Below, one piece after another: positions 4,950-12,833 of a DNA stretch of 48,861 nt; within the stretch, counting starts at the first letter, position 1, and each line of letters starts with the position of its first letter. The stretch covers positions 1 to 48,861 of the forward strand of contig NZ_CAJOKH010000006.1 of assembly GCF_905235195.1 (NCBI RefSeq), given 5' to 3'. A program made the position numbers and the translations under genes. Source of the DNA: an uncultured Methanobrevibacter sp. GTDB taxonomy: Archaea; Methanobacteriota; Methanobacteria; Methanobacteriales; Methanobacteriaceae. The notes beneath the pieces were generated by a model. It was given only the letters and a program-made list of their open reading frames with translations. It did no database searches and was not told the DNA's origin.

Positions 4950-5877
4950 CTATAAAGGATCAATTACTCCTTTTTCTGTAATAATTGCTGTTATTAAATC
5001 ATTTGGAACTATATCAAATGCTGGATTAATAACTTCAGTGCCTTCTGGACAAATCCTACAATTTCCATAATGAGTTACTTCTTCAGGGTCACGCTCTTCA
5101 ATAAGAGTATCATTAATATCTATTTCCATATCAAAGGTAGAATAGGGAGCTGCTACATAAAATGGAAGATTAAATCTTTTAGCAGCAAGTGCAACCATAA
5201 ATGAACCTATTTTATTAACAACACCCCCTTTAGCAACCCTATCTGCACCGATAACTACTTTATCCACCATACCCTGACTCATTAAATAACCGCTTGCAAC
5301 ATCACAAATAAGTTTTACAGGAATATTCTCTTGCTGCATCTCCCATACACTTAAACTTGCACCTTGCCCCCGTGGACGAGTCTCATCACAAATAACTTTA
5401 ATATTTTTATTTTGTTCATTTGCCGCTCTTATTACACCAAGAGCAGTACCATAATCAACAGCACAAAGTGCACCTGCATTACAATGAGTTAAAATAGTAT
5501 CTCCATCACTGATTAACTCTGCACCATATTTGCCTATGAGTCTGTTAATTTCCATATCCTCAGCATAGATTTTAAGAGCTTCATCAACAGGATTTTCACA
5601 TTCAAATACTCTATCTACTGCCCAAAAAAGATTTTTAGCTGTTGGTCTTGATTTTTTAATTTCATCTGCTGCTTTTTTTAAATCAACACCTTCAAGATAT
5701 GCAAGTGCCATTGCAAATCCTGCAGATACCAATAGCTGGTGCTCCCCTTACTGTCATATTTTTTATAGCAACAATTACATCCTTAAAATTATCACAATAA
5801 ACATATTCCAGTTTATCCGGTAATTTTCTTTGATCAACTAATTTAAGTTTATTATTTTCCCATTCTAAAGTTTTCAT
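4950..5877 (-). pseudogene. mtnA: S-methyl-5-thioribose-1-phosphate isomerase, frameshifted
   Basis: MtnA isomerises 5-methylthioribose 1-phosphate to the ribulose form in methylthioadenosine salvage. Two frames together cover the family. The first (5877-5692) runs MKTLEWENNKLKLVDQRKLP to TVRGAPAIG. The second (to 4950) resumes at SAGFAMALAYLEG and contains the catalytic cysteine in THCNAGALC, ETRPRGQGA and the catalytic aspartate in IGADRV. The join lies near 5724-5732; the frame change corresponds to one extra or two missing bases. Because the family normally reads GAPAIG-V/I-SAGF, loss of one AT from ATAT is the simplest explanation. Everything else is intact and full length (about 308 residues), so this is either a very recent mutation or an assembly error. 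Alternatively the protein could be a ribose-1,5-bisphosphate isomerase relative, but the N-terminal sequence favours MtnA. Confidence 0.85.
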
Positions 5878-6063
5878 AATATTAGTTAATAGTTAGAAAT
5901 TTAAATAATTTTTGTTAAAATCCAAATAATTACACTTTAAGGAGAAATATTTTTTTACTGTTGTAAAAAATAAAAAAAAGTAAAGTAAAAAAATAATAAT
6001 AAAATACTTATTAATTACTTTAAAGCCAAAATTTTTAATAAAACATAAAACAAAATATCAAAT

Positions 6064-6987
6064 TTAGTAATGGCTTTGTGGTGTCATACCCATATTGTGG
6101 TCATGACTTTTTTTACCTGGAATTCCATATGCATCTGCTCTACATTGAGTACATGCCCTAAATACAGGAATATATTCTTCAACTTCTTCTCTAACCTTTT
6201 CAATTAACATACAATCTGGACGAGGATAATCTTTCATTTTATTTAAAGGTATAAGAGGAAGTACATTCATTAATGATGCTCCACGATTAGAAACTTCTTT
6301 TGCAATTTCAACAATGTGTTCATCATTTAATCCAGGGATTAAAACACTGTTAACTTTTACAACAATACCTAACTCATCTAATGCTTCAATACCTTCTAAT
6401 TGATTTTTAATAAGTATTTTAGCTCCTTCTACACCCTTATAAACTTTATCATGATAATGAATAAAACCTACAATATCTTTTAATATTTCAGGATCAACTG
6501 CATTAACAGTTACAGTAACTGAATTAAGTTTACATTTTGCAATATTCTCTATTTTATCAGGTAGTAAAAGTCCATTAGTACTCATACATTTTATTATTTC
6601 CGGATGAGCTTCATCAATTTTTTTGAAAAATTCAAAAGTATTATCATTATCTAATGAATCACCAGGACCTGCTACTCCAACAACAGATATTGGTTCTTCC
6701 TCCATAATTTTATCTACATGTGCAATTGCTTCATCAGGACTTAAAATACATCCTGCAACACCTGGCCTCATATCCTCTTTATTATGTAGAGACCTATCAC
6801 AGAAATTACAACCTATATTACAACTAGGTGCTATAGGTACATGTGCCCTTCCTACTTTATCGTGTAATTGTTCATTATAACAAGGATGAACTTTAGTAAT
6901 GTGAGCAAATTTCTCTGCTCTTTTATTACACTTACATAATTTAGCATTAGGTCCAGTTTGATCATGTTTTCCTTCAAATCCACTCAT
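6064..6987 (-). CDS. nifB: NifB, radical SAM iron-sulfur-carbide cluster synthase
   Basis: NifB fuses two [4Fe-4S] clusters and inserts a SAM-derived carbide to make the 8Fe NifB-co (L-cluster), the precursor of the nitrogenase cofactor. The 307-residue protein is the short archaeal form without a NifX-like domain. Visible are the HPC motif (His35, Cys36), the radical-SAM triad CNIGCNFC (Cys56, 60, 63), RPGVAGC near 74-80, VVGVAGPGDSLDN near 102-114, NSVLIPGLND, and the C-terminal ACTQCRADAYG (Cys279, 282) that binds the precursor clusters. The start follows GAGGCAGATAAT-ATG. It lies on the same strand as, and directly downstream of, the mmp operon, but a 390-base gap and a TATA-like box suggest its own promoter. 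No nitrogenase subunit, nifE or nifN is in the window, so a role outside nitrogen fixation is plausible. Confidence 0.93.
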   Translation of the reverse strand: MSGFEGKHDQTGPNAKLCKCNKRAEKFAHITKVHPCYNEQLHDKVGRAHVPIAPSCNIGCNFCDRSLHNKEDMRPGVAGCILSPDEAIAHVDKIMEEEPISVVGVAGPGDSLDNDNTFEFFKKIDEAHPEIIKCMSTNGLLLPDKIENIAKCKLNSVTVTVNAVDPEILKDIVGFIHYHDKVYKGVEGAKILIKNQLEGIEALDELGIVVKVNSVLIPGLNDEHIVEIAKEVSNRGASLMNVLPLIPLNKMKDYPRPDCMLIEKVREEVEEYIPVFRACTQCRADAYGIPGKKSHDHNMGMTPQSHY

Positions 6988-7048
6988 ATTATCTGCCTCA
7001 AAAAAAGTTTAAAAAAAACTTTAATTAATTTATAACTATTGTTATTGA

Positions 7049-7064
7049 TAATATATAAAGTTTT
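7049..7064 (-). promoter_or_regulatory. TATA-like box upstream of nifB
   Basis: On the minus strand AAACTTTATATATTA lies 62-77 bases before the nifB ATG. A purine-rich BRE-like AAAC in front of TTTATATAT is a good archaeal promoter match and implies that nifB can be transcribed apart from the mmp genes. The rest of the 7000-7380 spacer is A/T-rich with no open frame. Confidence 0.45.
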
Positions 7065-7379
7065 TGACTTTTAAATAAAGAAATAGTAAAAAGGATAAAT
7101 TTCTTTAAGAAAATACTGATTAAATTTAATATAAATAAAAAATTAAAAAAATAATTGGAAAATAAAAAAATATTTAATTAATTTTAAAAATTAATAAATA
7201 AAAGCTAAATAAATACTCATAAAAAAAATCATTTAATGGATATATAGAAAAAGAAAATTTAAACACAAATAAATAAAAATGAGGAAACTTAAAAATAATT
7301 AATTTTGAATAATAAAAAAATTAAAATAAAAATTAAAAAATGAGAAAAATTATAATCTTTAAAAATCAAAGAATAATAA

Positions 7380-7937
7380 TTAAACTCCATTTAATTCATC
7401 AATATAATTCTCACACTTTTCAACCCAATCATCTTTAATCAATTCATCAGTTGCAACCACTGCTACAACACCATCACGGGATAAATCCTTAATGACTTTA
7501 AACCCTTCAGGAATGATTCTATAAATACCATCATATATTCTTTTTTGAAGATTGATTTGAGGATTATCAACAATGAAATCTGCAATATGCATTTGATTTC
7601 CTTCTAATACTATAGCATATCTATTAGGCTGATGAACATTTTCTCTGCCAAATTCTCTCCATAAAACCCTTAATATATTAGGAAGATAATTTTCATTACC
7701 TACAGCTACAATAGTTTGCTCATCATTTTTAGAATATTTGGTTTCTGAAACTTCGTGCATAAAAATATTAGAAGTAGTATCTTTCATTTTAACTGCAAAT
7801 ATAAACATTGCATTTTTAGGATCAACAAATGCTCTTAAATCAACAATAGAAGGGCCTAATTGCAAATCTTGAAAAATTTGCTTAATAATCATATCATATA
7901 CTGCTGCCCCTTCTTCATCATAAGATTCAACATACAT
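7380..7937 (-). CDS. mmp17: Methanogenesis marker protein 17
   Basis: A methanogen-specific protein (DUF2113 family). Biochemical work on methanogens associates Mmp17 with the ATP-dependent complex that reductively activates methyl-coenzyme M reductase. The 185-residue protein begins MYVESYDEEGAAVYDM and has IVDLRAFVDPKNAMFIFAV, WREFGRENVHQPNRY and a C-terminal DGVVAVVATDELIKDDW. It carries no CxxC pair and only one cysteine near the C-terminus, so it is not itself an obvious cluster binder. I prefer the ATG at 7937 over the GTG at 7946 because the AGTGGT stretch that includes that GTG makes a better ribosome binding site. It is the last gene of the mmp array, 14 bases downstream of mmp15. 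Confidence 0.85.
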   Translation of the reverse strand: MYVESYDEEGAAVYDMIIKQIFQDLQLGPSIVDLRAFVDPKNAMFIFAVKMKDTTSNIFMHEVSETKYSKNDEQTIVAVGNENYLPNILRVLWREFGRENVHQPNRYAIVLEGNQMHIADFIVDNPQINLQKRIYDGIYRIIPEGFKVIKDLSRDGVVAVVATDELIKDDWVEKCENYIDELNGV

Positions 7938-7951
7938 AAAAACCACTTAAC

Positions 7952-9199
7952 TTAAGCTTTTTTATCTTCCTGTCTAGTACCAAGACCTGATACAAGTAAT
8001 GCTGCACCAACTGCCCCAATATGTTGGGAATAATCAGGTACAATAACATCAATTCCTCCCAAAGTAGTACTTACTGCTTCAACAAGACCGGTAATAAGTG
8101 AAGTACCACCTACTTGGATTAATGGTTCTCTAATATCTATTTCTTGAAGTTGTTGTTCATAAACCTGTTGAGCTACAGAGTGACATGCCGCATCAGCAAC
8201 ATCCGCTTTAGACCCACCAGCTGCAAGAGTAGTAACTAAATCTTGAATACCGAATACAATACAATAACTGTTCAAAACAGCATTTCTATAATCTCCTGAA
8301 ACTGCTAAAGGACCAAGTTCTGTAATATCAACATCTAAACGACGGGAAGTCATATCTAAAAATCTTCCTGATGCACCTGCACAAATACCTCCCATAGTAA
8401 AGTTATCTGGAATACCATTATTAACAGTAATAACCTTATTATCCATACCACCAATATCTAAAACAGTTGCCTCACCTCTTTGTTTATCTGCAAGATAAAC
8501 AGCACCTTTTGCATTTACAGATAATTCCTCCTGAATAAGTTCTGCATTTAATTCTTTACCTATAGTTATACGACCATATCCAGTTGTACCAATTCCATCT
8601 AAATCATCCCAACCATAATCAGTTTCAGCAAAAGCCTGTTCTGTTCCTTTATAAACTGATTCCATAATATCTTTAGTAGGATTCCAACCAGTACCTATAA
8701 CCTTATTGTTCTCCATTAAAATGACTTTTGTAGTTGTAGAACCAGAATCAATACCTAAAGTCAAACCTTCTTGTTTTTCACGTGCCAAAATACTTCTTCT
8801 TGCAACTGTAGTAACCAATGCTTCCATACGAATAAATAATTCATCTGCCTTTGTTTTTTCTGTAAATGAATATGTAACAACAGGAATACGTGAATTTTCC
8901 TGTAAGAATCTTCTAACCTCATTTCTTACAAGGGCTGCTTCAGCACATCTAAAACAACTAGCTACAAATACCGCATCTGCTTTACAACGACCTTCAACAA
9001 TACTCATTGCACGAGCAATCATCAATTTTAAACTTGAACTTTGAGCTGAAAAACCAAATTTAGTATATGATTCTTCAATATAATCTAAATCAATTTCCGG
9101 AAGTATAATTTCTGCACCGAATGTTAAAGCTGCTTTTTCAATCTCTTTTTGAATACCACTATATTCTGTACCACAGGAAACTAAAGCTATCTTTACCAT
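7952..9199 (-). CDS. mmp15: Methanogenesis marker protein 15, HgdC/BadF-type ATPase
   Basis: A 415-residue two-domain protein. Residues about 1-140 resemble the cluster-binding subunit of 2-hydroxyacyl-CoA dehydratases and hold several cysteines (SCGTEYSG, Cys9; [15 protein letters not shown], Cys72, 82, 85). Residues about 146-415 form an ASKHA-fold ATPase like the dehydratase activator HgdC. Visible are [12 protein letters not shown] (phosphate loop), [11 protein letters not shown], the cluster ligands [10 protein letters not shown] (Cys273) and [10 protein letters not shown] (Cys313), and a terminal VGGTSLITG. HgdC relatives use ATP hydrolysis to fire a low-potential electron, the type of chemistry needed to reduce F430. 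The start is the ATG at 9199, with GGGAGGT seven bases before it; upstream ATGs lie inside mmp5. The gap to mmp5 is one base, indicating translational coupling. Direct evidence for its role in MCR activation is outside this sequence. Confidence 0.88.
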
Positions 9200-9200
9200 T

Positions 9201-9653
9201 TTAATTACCTCCCTCTCCATCAAGAGTATCTAAAAATTTATTAATTTTACCTACAAAATCAAATGTTTCATCCCTATTTGTAGGATATTCTAGTTCTAAT
9301 TTAGGAATATCTTTTTTACGTAAACAGAACATAGTTAATTCATTTGTTCTTGCACAACCAATACATCCAAATCCAATTGGTGCATCATCAACAATAATTG
9401 CAGCTTCAGCTTCATCTATAAGAGGACCGATAACAGCCATCCTACCCCTTACACCTGAAGGAACTTCAATTGCCGCATATTTTAATCCTTTTAAAGGATC
9501 TTCTTCTGTGATATTCATAGGAGGAGAATCTATTTCAGGATCTCTAACTTTTTTAGACATTGCTTTTTGTAAAGCTAAAACTGTATGACCTTTTCTTTCA
9601 ATCAAATCCCCTAATACTAATGAATTCGGAGGATAAATAGCTACCTTAACCAT
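9201..9653 (-). CDS. mmp5: Methanogenesis marker protein 5
   Basis: A 150-residue methanogen-specific protein of unknown biochemical function. It begins [20 protein letters not shown] and contains a cysteine pair in [11 protein letters not shown] (CxxC, near residues 108-111) and a third cysteine in TMFCLRKK, a pattern that could bind a metal or cluster (inference). The chosen ATG at 9653 has AGGTGA four bases upstream and is preferred over the longer frame starting MKGEN. It sits between mmp6 (81-base gap) and mmp15 (one-base gap), and its stop codon is next to the mmp15 ribosome binding site. Placement points to a shared role in MCR activation or maturation. Confidence 0.85.
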
Positions 9654-9734
9654 ATTTTCACCTTTCAATTACCATATTATTTATATTTTCCCAATAACCA
9701 ATAATCATAAAATTTTAAATTAGTTTAAATTAAT

Positions 9735-10217
9735 CTATTTTTCAGCAGAATCCTCTTTTTCAATAGATTCATTAACAATCTCAACTAATTCATCAACATC
9801 AACAGGTTTAGGTTTTTCAATTAAAACATCTTTAGGATTTTTTAAAGCATCCCCAACATCAGCCAAAATCCTATATTCTGATTCCATTTGATGGAAACCT
9901 TCTCTTGGACCATACCTGTGACCTCTACAACGTCTTGGATCTCCTGGAGGAAATCCTCTAGATTTAGTGAAAATATTATAAGGGTCTAATTTTCTAATTT
10001 CTTTTATTGCCATCATAACATCTTCTTCATTACCACTAACCATTGCACCATAACAAGTCCATTTAACAGTAATAGGCAAATCCAAAAGATGCATTTGACT
10101 TACAATTTCATTTTCACTAACATTAGCCTTTGGACCTAATATAATCATTCTAGTTGTAAAATCAGGATCTAATTCTTCTTTTGATAATTCCGGACTAATC
10201 GCTAAGTTCGCGGACAT
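9735..10217 (-). CDS. mmp6: Methanogenesis marker protein 6
   Basis: A 160-residue methanogen-specific protein. The core [20 protein letters not shown] is followed by [16 protein letters not shown] and an arginine-rich basic motif, [17 protein letters not shown] (about residues 91-107), which may contact an acidic or nucleotide partner. The C-terminal third is a charged tail. The ATG follows GGAGAGA and lies inside the last codons of mmp3, giving a 23-base overlap; this strongly suggests co-translation of Mmp3 and Mmp6. Function is unknown beyond its co-occurrence with methanogenesis and its operon partners. Confidence 0.87.
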
Positions 10218-11739
10218 ATAAAATCTCTCCTTCTTTTAATTTACTAATTAATTCTAAATCAGTTATAACTTTTCCCACAATATTTGTAGCTTCAAATGGT
10301 TCTGCAGTAGGACCAAAATCATTATTTGCTTCAAATCTTACACCAATCAAACCAGTATTTTTCTTAGACATATTAGTTACACCAATAATTCCAGGATCAA
10401 TTGTATCTACATTAGGAATATTTTCAGGAATAAGACCTTTAGCATCATTAGAATTACCCTCAAAAATAGACATATTCATTCCAGGGAATGCAAAATGAAC
10501 TTTTAACTCCCCAATTGGTTTTTCAATTAAACCTGTAACCTTTTTAAAGTACCAAACAGTCCTTGGTGCTTTGTCTGTAATATCAATAACAGTAATATCT
10601 TTTGCAGGATATGCAGTTGTTGTAACTTTTCCTGCTTCAATAATCTCCACAGTAGTAGGAGGTTCTTGATGAACTATAATTGCATCATCATCACAAATAC
10701 CTTCCCTTATATGTTCAATACCTTGAGAAGATAATAAATCTGCAGCTTCTTTTTGTGAGATAGCAAGAGTCATAATTCTTGGAGGATTAGACCTAACAGT
10801 AATTACATCTCCTTTAGATGCTGAATCAATTAATTCCATACCTTTTACAACGTTAGCTACAATAGTATGAGAATTAACTTCAACTCTATCTTCACGATAA
10901 ATGAAAATATTACCTAAACCAGAACCATCATTTCTCATAGTAACAGTTCCTCTTTTTCTAGGACCAACTTCTTCTTTTTGTCTGGATATACCTTGAAGTT
11001 GATAGAAACCTAAAAGTGAATTTGCATCATAACTAACTTCAAATGTTCCATTTTCTATTAAAGAAAATAAATGTTCAACAGAATCTGGAGAATTAAAATT
11101 AGGTTCTAATTCTACATAAGTAAATAAATCATTACCTTCTTCTAAAACAGTATCCAAATTAGATACAGATGCACTGTCAACAGTAGTTGTTCTTTCAATA
11201 ATTGGTTCAATATCTAAAATATTATCTTCTTCAGTTAAAAGAGATAAAGTTTTTTTACCACCAATTACATTAGCAAACACTCCCCTATTGTGTTCAGGGC
11301 AGCCATATATACTAAAATGTTTATCAATAGAAAATATTAAGTGTGTTGATTCATTACTAAAACCAGATAAACTTAAAACTACTTCCAAATCATTGTATTT
11401 ATATTCATTACGAGAAGGTTCCAAATCAGTGACAATAGGACCTGCTGCAATTTCAGTAGATGAAGTCCATCTAATAGAACAACCTATAAATTCTTTATAT
11501 TTTTCTTTCCAAACCTCGATTATAGGTTTAGCAGCCAACTCCTCAACCATCTCAAGAATAATACTGCCTTTAGGAGTTTTAATTTTAAATTTGTTAATAT
11601 TCTTTTCAATTTCCTTTTCTCCTTTAATTAAGCACAAAATACTTCCAGGAGTATAAGGAGCATTTGAAATCTGGATAGCATCTTCGATAGTAGAACCATC
11701 AGCAATTTCTATTTCTTCTCCATTAATTGTTATTAACAT
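10195..11739 (-). CDS. mmp3: Methanogenesis marker protein 3 (UPF0288)
   Basis: A 514-residue methanogen-specific protein. The first 40 residues ([20 protein letters not shown]) look like a small beta-grasp, ThiS/TGS-like domain. The rest appears to contain three repeats resembling cyclophilin cores. Each ends in a similar segment: [20 protein letters not shown] near 155-174, [20 protein letters not shown] near 293-312 and [20 protein letters not shown] near 485-504. The middle repeat also has the cyclophilin-like entry [18 protein letters not shown] (about 263-280). Published work on methanogens places Mmp3 in the MCR activation complex, from memory. AGGGAGA precedes the ATG. It is 113 bases downstream of mmp2 and overlaps mmp6. 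The cyclophilin comparison is mine and is unproved. Confidence 0.87.
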
Positions 11740-11852
11740 AAAATCTCCCTAAATCATTATATTAATTAATTTTAATAATTAAATTTGAAAATTATTAAAA
11801 AACTATGACTATGAATTGTTTTTTTACAAAAATAATTACAATAAAAATATAA

Positions 11853-12833
11853 TTAATTTTCAAATATTAAAACAGGATTTTCATCTTGCCTAAATACTTC
11901 TACTTTTTCATTTTCATTTTCTAAATAAAGTACTTTTTCATTTATTATTTCCCCAACAACTTTTGTTGTTAGAGAATATTTTTCAAGATTTTCAATTATT
12001 CTATTACAATTTTCTTCAGGAGCAGTTAAAACAAATCCTGCACCAGGATAAACTTTAAGCCATACATCCCAAGGAACATTTTCATTTTTAGGTATTTTAT
12101 CTAAATTTACACAAGCACCTACACCAGATGCTTCAAGTAACATTTCAAGTGTTCCTAAAATTCCAGGATTACTAATATCTTTCCCAGCAGTTGGTAATCC
12201 TTCCATTGCAATTTGATTTATAGCATTAATTTGGTCTTGAACAAGTTTATCATCTTTAAAATAAGTAGTATCCCAATTTAATTTAGTTTCTTTATCATAG
12301 AATCTTCCATCTAAATCAATTGAAACAATTACTTTATCACCAATATTTGCACCTGATGATGGAATCATTTTATCTTTATCTGCAATACCTATGATTGCAA
12401 CTCCAATAGAATTAAACTCTGCATCAGGATGAAAGTGTCCCCCCACCATAGGAACTTTGAACTTTTCACAAGCAAATTTAATACCATCCATAATCTCTTT
12501 ACATGCATCATCATTATTAACAGATAAAATATTTACCATAGCAATAGGTTTTCCACCCATTGCTGCAATATCGTTAACATTCACCAAAACAGCACAATAT
12601 CCTGCCCAATAAGCATCCAAGTCTATTAATTGGCCCCATATACCATCTGCTGCAAATAATACCACTTGATTATTACCAATATCTATTGCAGATGCATCAT
12701 CACCAAAATCAAGAAGAACATCACCAGAAATATTATAAACTGATTTTAAAATATTTGTAACTTCAGATATAGAATTTTTACGAGTAACTCCTTTAAATTC
12801 CTGTATTGAATTTACTAAACTAGTTAAATCCAA
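11853..12833 (-). CDS. mmp2: Methanogenesis marker protein 2, AIR-synthase-like
   Basis: A 326-residue member of the PurM/SelD/HypE/ThiL ATP-dependent superfamily, specific to methanogens. Key features are DFGDDASAIDIG near 42-53 (metal and ATP binding), a VNVNDIAAMGGKP segment typical of the superfamily near 87-99, KFKVPMVGGHFHPDAEF near 123-139, and GKDISNPGILGTLEMLLEAS near 216-235. Superfamily members phosphorylate or dehydrate small substrates using ATP; the substrate here is unknown. The start is the TTG at 12833, with GGTG positioned upstream, since no ATG fits. It follows the DUF2117 gene by 38 bases and precedes mmp3, so it may act in the same MCR-related process. Confidence 0.8.
   Translation of the reverse strand: MDLTSLVNSIQEFKGVTRKNSISEVTNILKSVYNISGDVLLDFGDDASAIDIGNNQVVLFAADGIWGQLIDLDAYWAGYCAVLVNVNDIAAMGGKPIAMVNILSVNNDDACKEIMDGIKFACEKFKVPMVGGHFHPDAEFNSIGVAIIGIADKDKMIPSSGANIGDKVIVSIDLDGRFYDKETKLNWDTTYFKDDKLVQDQINAINQIAMEGLPTAGKDISNPGILGTLEMLLEASGVGACVNLDKIPKNENVPWDVWLKVYPGAGFVLTAPEENCNRIIENLEKYSLTTKVVGEIINEKVLYLENENEKVEVFRQDENPVLIFEN

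Follow-up and report, generated by a model that had tools for sequence, protein, structure and literature searches.

The complex that reductively activates methyl-coenzyme M reductase (MCR) has been solved from Methanococcus maripaludis as an assembly of McrC, Mmp7, Mmp17, Mmp3 and A2 (PDB 8S7V, 8S7X and 9H1L; PMC12176620). Outside the Nif family, L-like clusters have been described in McrC and Mmp7; Mmp17 adjoins the cluster FeSIII and Mmp3 is a further subunit; Mmp5, Mmp6 and Mmp15 are unmentioned in the structure paper, and the carbide of the clusters is still unproven (PMC12176620). The preliminary description of the locus studied here had named L-like clusters as part of this complex, and they have indeed been shown by others (PMC12176620). 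NifB was listed in 2011 among the genes that are found in all methanogens and are absent from non-methanogens (PMC3087415), and the 2025 structure paper, which cites the essentiality of NifB in methanogens that lack nitrogenase, proposed it as the maker of the activation clusters (PMC12176620). Because of this proposal and the earlier listing, the central idea pursued below is not new: the interpretation is supported but already published, and what is new is a gene-order survey and a correction concerning one loop cysteine of NifB. No earlier report of mmp–nifB synteny was found in the open-access literature, which misses most subscription papers and preprints, and no earlier report of a loop-cysteine variant of NifB was found in the papers searchable here.

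The window, the whole stretch of 48,861 nucleotides that was analyzed, carries on its minus strand the order mmp2–mmp3–mmp6–mmp5–mmp15–mmp17, followed by a 392-bp AT-rich spacer and nifB. Gene identities were taken from NCBIfam models. The upstream part of the conserved block, as defined by synteny among relatives, is mmp2 (11853–12833; TIGR03267, 437.6 bits), an AIR-synthase/SelD-like methanogenesis marker. The genes from mmp3, encoding the MCR-associated protein Mmp3 (10195–11739; TIGR03268, 616.8 bits), through mmp6 (9735–10217; TIGR03272, 147.6 bits), mmp5 (9201–9668; TIGR03271, 234.6 bits) and mmp15 (7952–9223; TIGR03286, 696 bits) to mmp17 (7380–7946; TIGR03291, 175.5 bits) are closely packed or overlapping, and nifB (6064–6987) encodes a stand-alone radical-SAM NifB of 307 residues with no NifX domain. 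The models confirm the mmp3-6-5-15-17 and nifB genes, their order and their coordinates as first described, with mmp2 as the one member that had been left unnamed. The description of nifB as directly downstream of the mmp genes passes over the spacer (6988–7379, 11% GC). Because this long, AT-rich spacer holds a TATA-like box, TTTATATA, near 7059–7052 and 72 bp ahead of the nifB ATG, nifB may have its own promoter in this genome. The mmp17–nifB pairing is constant across lineages, as the gap is short elsewhere, and the two genes may share a transcript here. An Rfam scan of positions 5500–12000 gave no matches, and mcrC, mmp7 and atwA, which encode the cluster-bearing proteins and the ATPase, are absent from the window. 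Beyond nifB, the mtnA frame (4950–5880, minus strand) looks broken near 5713; the open reading frame that starts at 5880 enters another frame, indicating a frameshift or an error in the draft assembly.

The source genome, that of a gut-type methanogen, is a 1.89-Mb draft of 107 contigs with a completeness of 96.3%. CfbC (NF033200, 421.8 bits) and CfbD (TIGR03282, 508 bits), both of F430 synthesis, are the only strong matches to PF00142 and PF00148 in it and its sole nitrogenase-superfamily genes. The absence of nifH, nifD, nifK, nifE and nifN that had been noted for the window is borne out and extends to the 96%-complete draft, in which none was found, the missing ~4% being a caveat for this genome only. 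All five activation proteins are encoded in the same genome, with the McrC and Mmp7 genes together on contig 2 and A2 on contig 47 (869.7 bits). In alignments with the solved complex 8S7V, with the McrC numbering checked by hand, McrC retains C12, H49, C55 and H118 and Mmp7 retains H84, C90 and C143; all seven reported ligands of the [8Fe–9S–C] clusters are conserved. These residues ligate the three L-like clusters of the complex, C90 of Mmp7 being only a possible ligand (PMC12176620). A McrC search of plasmids, for other archaea, gave no match. Within the block itself, Mmp15 is an ASKHA ATPase that matches activators of 2-hydroxyacyl-CoA dehydratases (4EHT/1HUX), and both [4Fe–4S] cysteine positions of HgdC/HadI-type activators are retained in 69 of 69 Mmp15 sequences. 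On this basis Mmp15 is a candidate for donating electrons at the expense of ATP, or for a helper role, and since it retains both activator cysteines, the block may bring an ATP-driven donor of its own.

Residues 22–307 of the window NifB align with the solved NifB 7JMB/7BI7 (E 5e-129); its TIGR01290 score of 280.7 bits lies below the cut-off of 343.65, which no NifB among the 150 class genomes attains. The radical-SAM motif CxxxCxxC is present as C56/C60/C63 and is invariant in 30 aligned sequences, and comparison with the K-cluster ligands of MthNifB (Cys18, His31, Cys115, Cys260 and Cys263) shows that the K1/K2 ligands are kept as C36, H49, C134, C279 and C282. The claim that all cluster-binding cysteines are in place thus holds for the radical-SAM and K-cluster ligands but not for the loop cysteine (MaNifB Cys63/MtNifB Cys62), which is missing from the window loop, CDRSLHNKEDMRPGVAGC. 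A new cysteine, C80, stands three residues past RPGV. In MtNifB, C62 has been described as strictly conserved and as a ligand of the unique iron of the radical-SAM cluster, where, together with a loop glutamate, it denies SAM access before the clusters have been loaded (PMC9692996); the equivalent Cys63 of MaNifB has been assigned to K1 (PMC6053413). Because the role seen in the crystal structures is that of a gate at the radical-SAM cluster and not that of a ligand to a K cluster, the missing loop cysteine does not exclude membership of the NifB family. By its other ligands and overall homology the window protein keeps the name NifB, with a predicted activity as [8Fe–9S–C] synthase acting on two [4Fe–4S] clusters and SAM.

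Of 101 class sequences, 22 carry the loop cysteine, 63 carry only the post-RPGV cysteine and 16 carry neither, a state seen in genus g4 and in the second nifB copies linked to nfl genes (see below). The loss was noted from the window NifB (6064–6987, residues C63–C80) and from loci L035–L119 and L127–L194; an acidic residue persists in the loop. The cysteine state tracks lineage, with five changes on an 81-row tree: the Methanobacterium- and Methanothermobacter-like lineages have retained the loop cysteine, and Methanobrevibacter, Methanosphaera and Methanovirga have lost it. Its loss was considered as a marker of nitrogenase loss and rejected, since the new-cysteine form also occurs in 11 genomes that carry full nif genes; the loss thus follows lineage and is no simple sign that nitrogenase has gone. 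In an AlphaFold model of the window NifB, residues 73–79 have pLDDT values under 50, too uncertain to show where C80 lies with respect to the radical-SAM cluster; C80 may act as a substitute gate.

Gene order was surveyed in 150 genomes of the class Methanobacteria. A clear nifB is present in 142 (in one as a fragment at a contig end), mmp17 in 144 and both in 141. In nine genomes the two genes are on separate contigs; in the 132 that carry them on one contig, mmp17 always precedes nifB on the same strand, at a distance of no more than about 0.6 kb in 131. The association reported for the window is therefore near-universal in the class. The exception is Candidatus Methanovirga (G098; loci L049, L053, L055, L059 and L127), which keeps both genes but has them separated, with nifB near pheS and metG; in G098 itself, nifB sits between pheS and a primase-like gene. 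An apparent loss of both nifB and mmp17 from the single-contig genome G020 was rejected, as a run of 12,001 masked bases (N) adjoins its mmp3. A contig scan for distant relatives matched only Methanobacteriales, and the survey genomes are not independent, since all come from one class. Two further arrangements were seen in passing: a diverged second mmp5-like stretch (33% identity) between mmp6 and mmp5 in Methanosphaera-type loci (L037, 8277–8768; L133, 5028–5525), and a tandem nifB pair in a Methanobrevibacter-type draft genome (L050, 394–2193; also G149:C75).

One explanation for these data would be that nifB is retained for a nitrogenase or nitrogenase-like enzyme and stands beside the mmp genes by accident. 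Judged by PF00148 content, 23 of the 142 nifB genomes have full nif genes, 14 have a nitrogenase-like pair or fusion and seven have no more than an NflD-like gene (about 400 residues), and a nitrogenase-like pair occurs in G009 and G018, both from the genus of the window. However, in 98 of the 142 CfbD is the sole PF00148 protein of nitrogenase type, and the window genome likewise has no other; six of the 98 (G013, G014, G023, G025, G027 and G034) are single-contig assemblies. Moreover, where a nitrogenase-like operon does occur, it can bring its own nifB. In the Methanosphaera-type genome G021, a 106-kb contig (L038, 5169–10177) carries nflD (561 residues), nflK (461 residues), a nifH-like gene and, immediately after them, a second nifB, and the first nifB is still beside mmp17. 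In the tree, the second copies from G021, G069 and G103 group in a clade of their own (support 100/98), apart from the mmp-linked copies, and copies similar to that of G021 are found in G069, G080 and G103. A division of labor, with one nifB serving the nitrogenase-like enzyme and the other MCR activation, would fit this arrangement. Retention for nitrogenase is already contradicted by the present data, and we regard it as extremely improbable. Open frames of about 1,000 residues with PF00148 matches of about 235 bits were also noted in several relatives (G009:C269:7498–8580, G018:C20:97732–98814 and others), two of them in the window's own genus and none in the window genome; they are possibly D–K fusions, the counterpart in G021 being two separate genes in one long frame.

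The adjacency might alternatively be an ancestral order frozen by slow rearrangement and functionally silent, which would be compatible with NifB serving MCR activation all the same. The longer conserved run around the block includes the unrelated genes mtnA, trm5b and dph5, and these, together with mmp2 and PIN and NAD-kinase-like genes, are also nearby in many genomes. Yet the junctions have not been held equally. Among the named genomes, the mmp17–nifB gap has a median of 89 bp and exceeds 1 kb in one of 71, whereas the nifB–mtnA gap has a median of 1.4 kb and exceeds 1 kb in 34 of 60; the former is the shorter in 51 of 56 loci, and most Methanobrevibacter-type genomes have opened the nifB–mtnA junction but not the mmp17–nifB one. 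In G010 the pair also persists away from the other mmp genes: mmp17 and nifB are 17 bp apart (about 20 bp in G001), and mmp3, mmp6, mmp5 and mmp15 are not within 8.7 kb upstream. We consider a frozen, silent order rather unlikely. That NifB feeds some other 8Fe-cluster or Fe–S protein, for example a different Mmp, besides or instead of the activation complex, draws on the products of mmp2, mmp5, mmp6 and mmp15 having no known cofactor, and on the essentiality of NifB not by itself identifying its client (PMC12176620). Against this, the L-like clusters described in non-Nif proteins are those of McrC and Mmp7, whose ligands are kept here, and a different client is improbable.

The preferred explanation is that the locus encodes part of the MCR reductive-activation machinery along with the enzyme responsible for its metal clusters, and we hold this to be very probable in view of the gene identities, nitrogenase absence, conserved McrC and Mmp7 ligands and conserved linkage observed here. 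NifB would fuse two [4Fe–4S] clusters and insert a SAM-derived carbide to give the [8Fe–9S–C] L-type cluster, which would then be installed in McrC and Mmp7, whose genes lie elsewhere in the genome, beside Mmp17 and Mmp3; the resulting three-cluster wire would carry electrons to Ni-F430 upon ATP hydrolysis by A2. The supply role assigned to NifB in the preliminary description is supported by gene order and by the absence of nitrogenase, and the window NifB probably makes the clusters of the activation complex and hands them over to McrC and Mmp7, a biochemical transfer of which no report was found in the literature searched. The support from gene order is indirect, with linkage data drawn entirely from the class Methanobacteria, and the split of nifB and mmp17 in Ca. 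Methanovirga speaks against the explanation, as do the position of mcrC, mmp7 and atwA outside the window, the unrelated genes in the longer conserved run and the still unproven carbide of the complex. More tentatively, and with considerable doubt, the Methanobrevibacter- and Methanosphaera-type NifB could have turned mostly to MCR activation, its gate having been rebuilt (loss of the loop cysteine that holds SAM back until both precursor clusters are in place, with a post-RPGV cysteine instead in most lineages and none in others), accompanied by Mmp15, an activator-type ATPase with its [4Fe–4S] cysteines in place, which could feed electrons to the wire of clusters at Mmp17.

If NifB is the source of the clusters behind MCR activation, then the carbide-cluster pathway of nitrogenase lies at the core of biological methane production, the retention of nifB in nitrogenase-free methanogens is explained, and NifB becomes a possible target against ruminant methane. 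The conserved neighborhood also yields a short list of partner genes, mmp2, mmp5, mmp6 and mmp15. The missing gate cysteine indicates that even a residue called strictly conserved can disappear or give way to another, and the loop-cysteine variants provide a natural set for studying the timing of carbide insertion.

Compared with the known systems, the window NifB matches the stand-alone archaeal enzymes (Methanothermobacter, 7BI7/7JMA/7JMB; Methanotrix, 6Y1X; and MaNifB) in its radical-SAM motif, its K-cluster ligands and its near-full-length alignment. It differs from them in lacking the loop cysteine (MaNifB C63/MtNifB C62) that caps their radical-SAM cluster, and in having cysteine, where they have arginine, three residues past RPGV. 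The nfl-linked NifB of G021 (L038, 9311–10177) belongs to the same family and is about 62% identical to the window protein, but it stands beside an nflDK–nifH operon, falls in its own clade and has neither the loop cysteine nor the new one, whereas the window NifB has C80. The source genome holds orthologues of all five subunits of the M. maripaludis activation complex; the paper describing that complex names no gene cluster (PMC12176620), whereas the window unites mmp3 and mmp17 in one block with mmp2, mmp6, mmp5, mmp15 and nifB.
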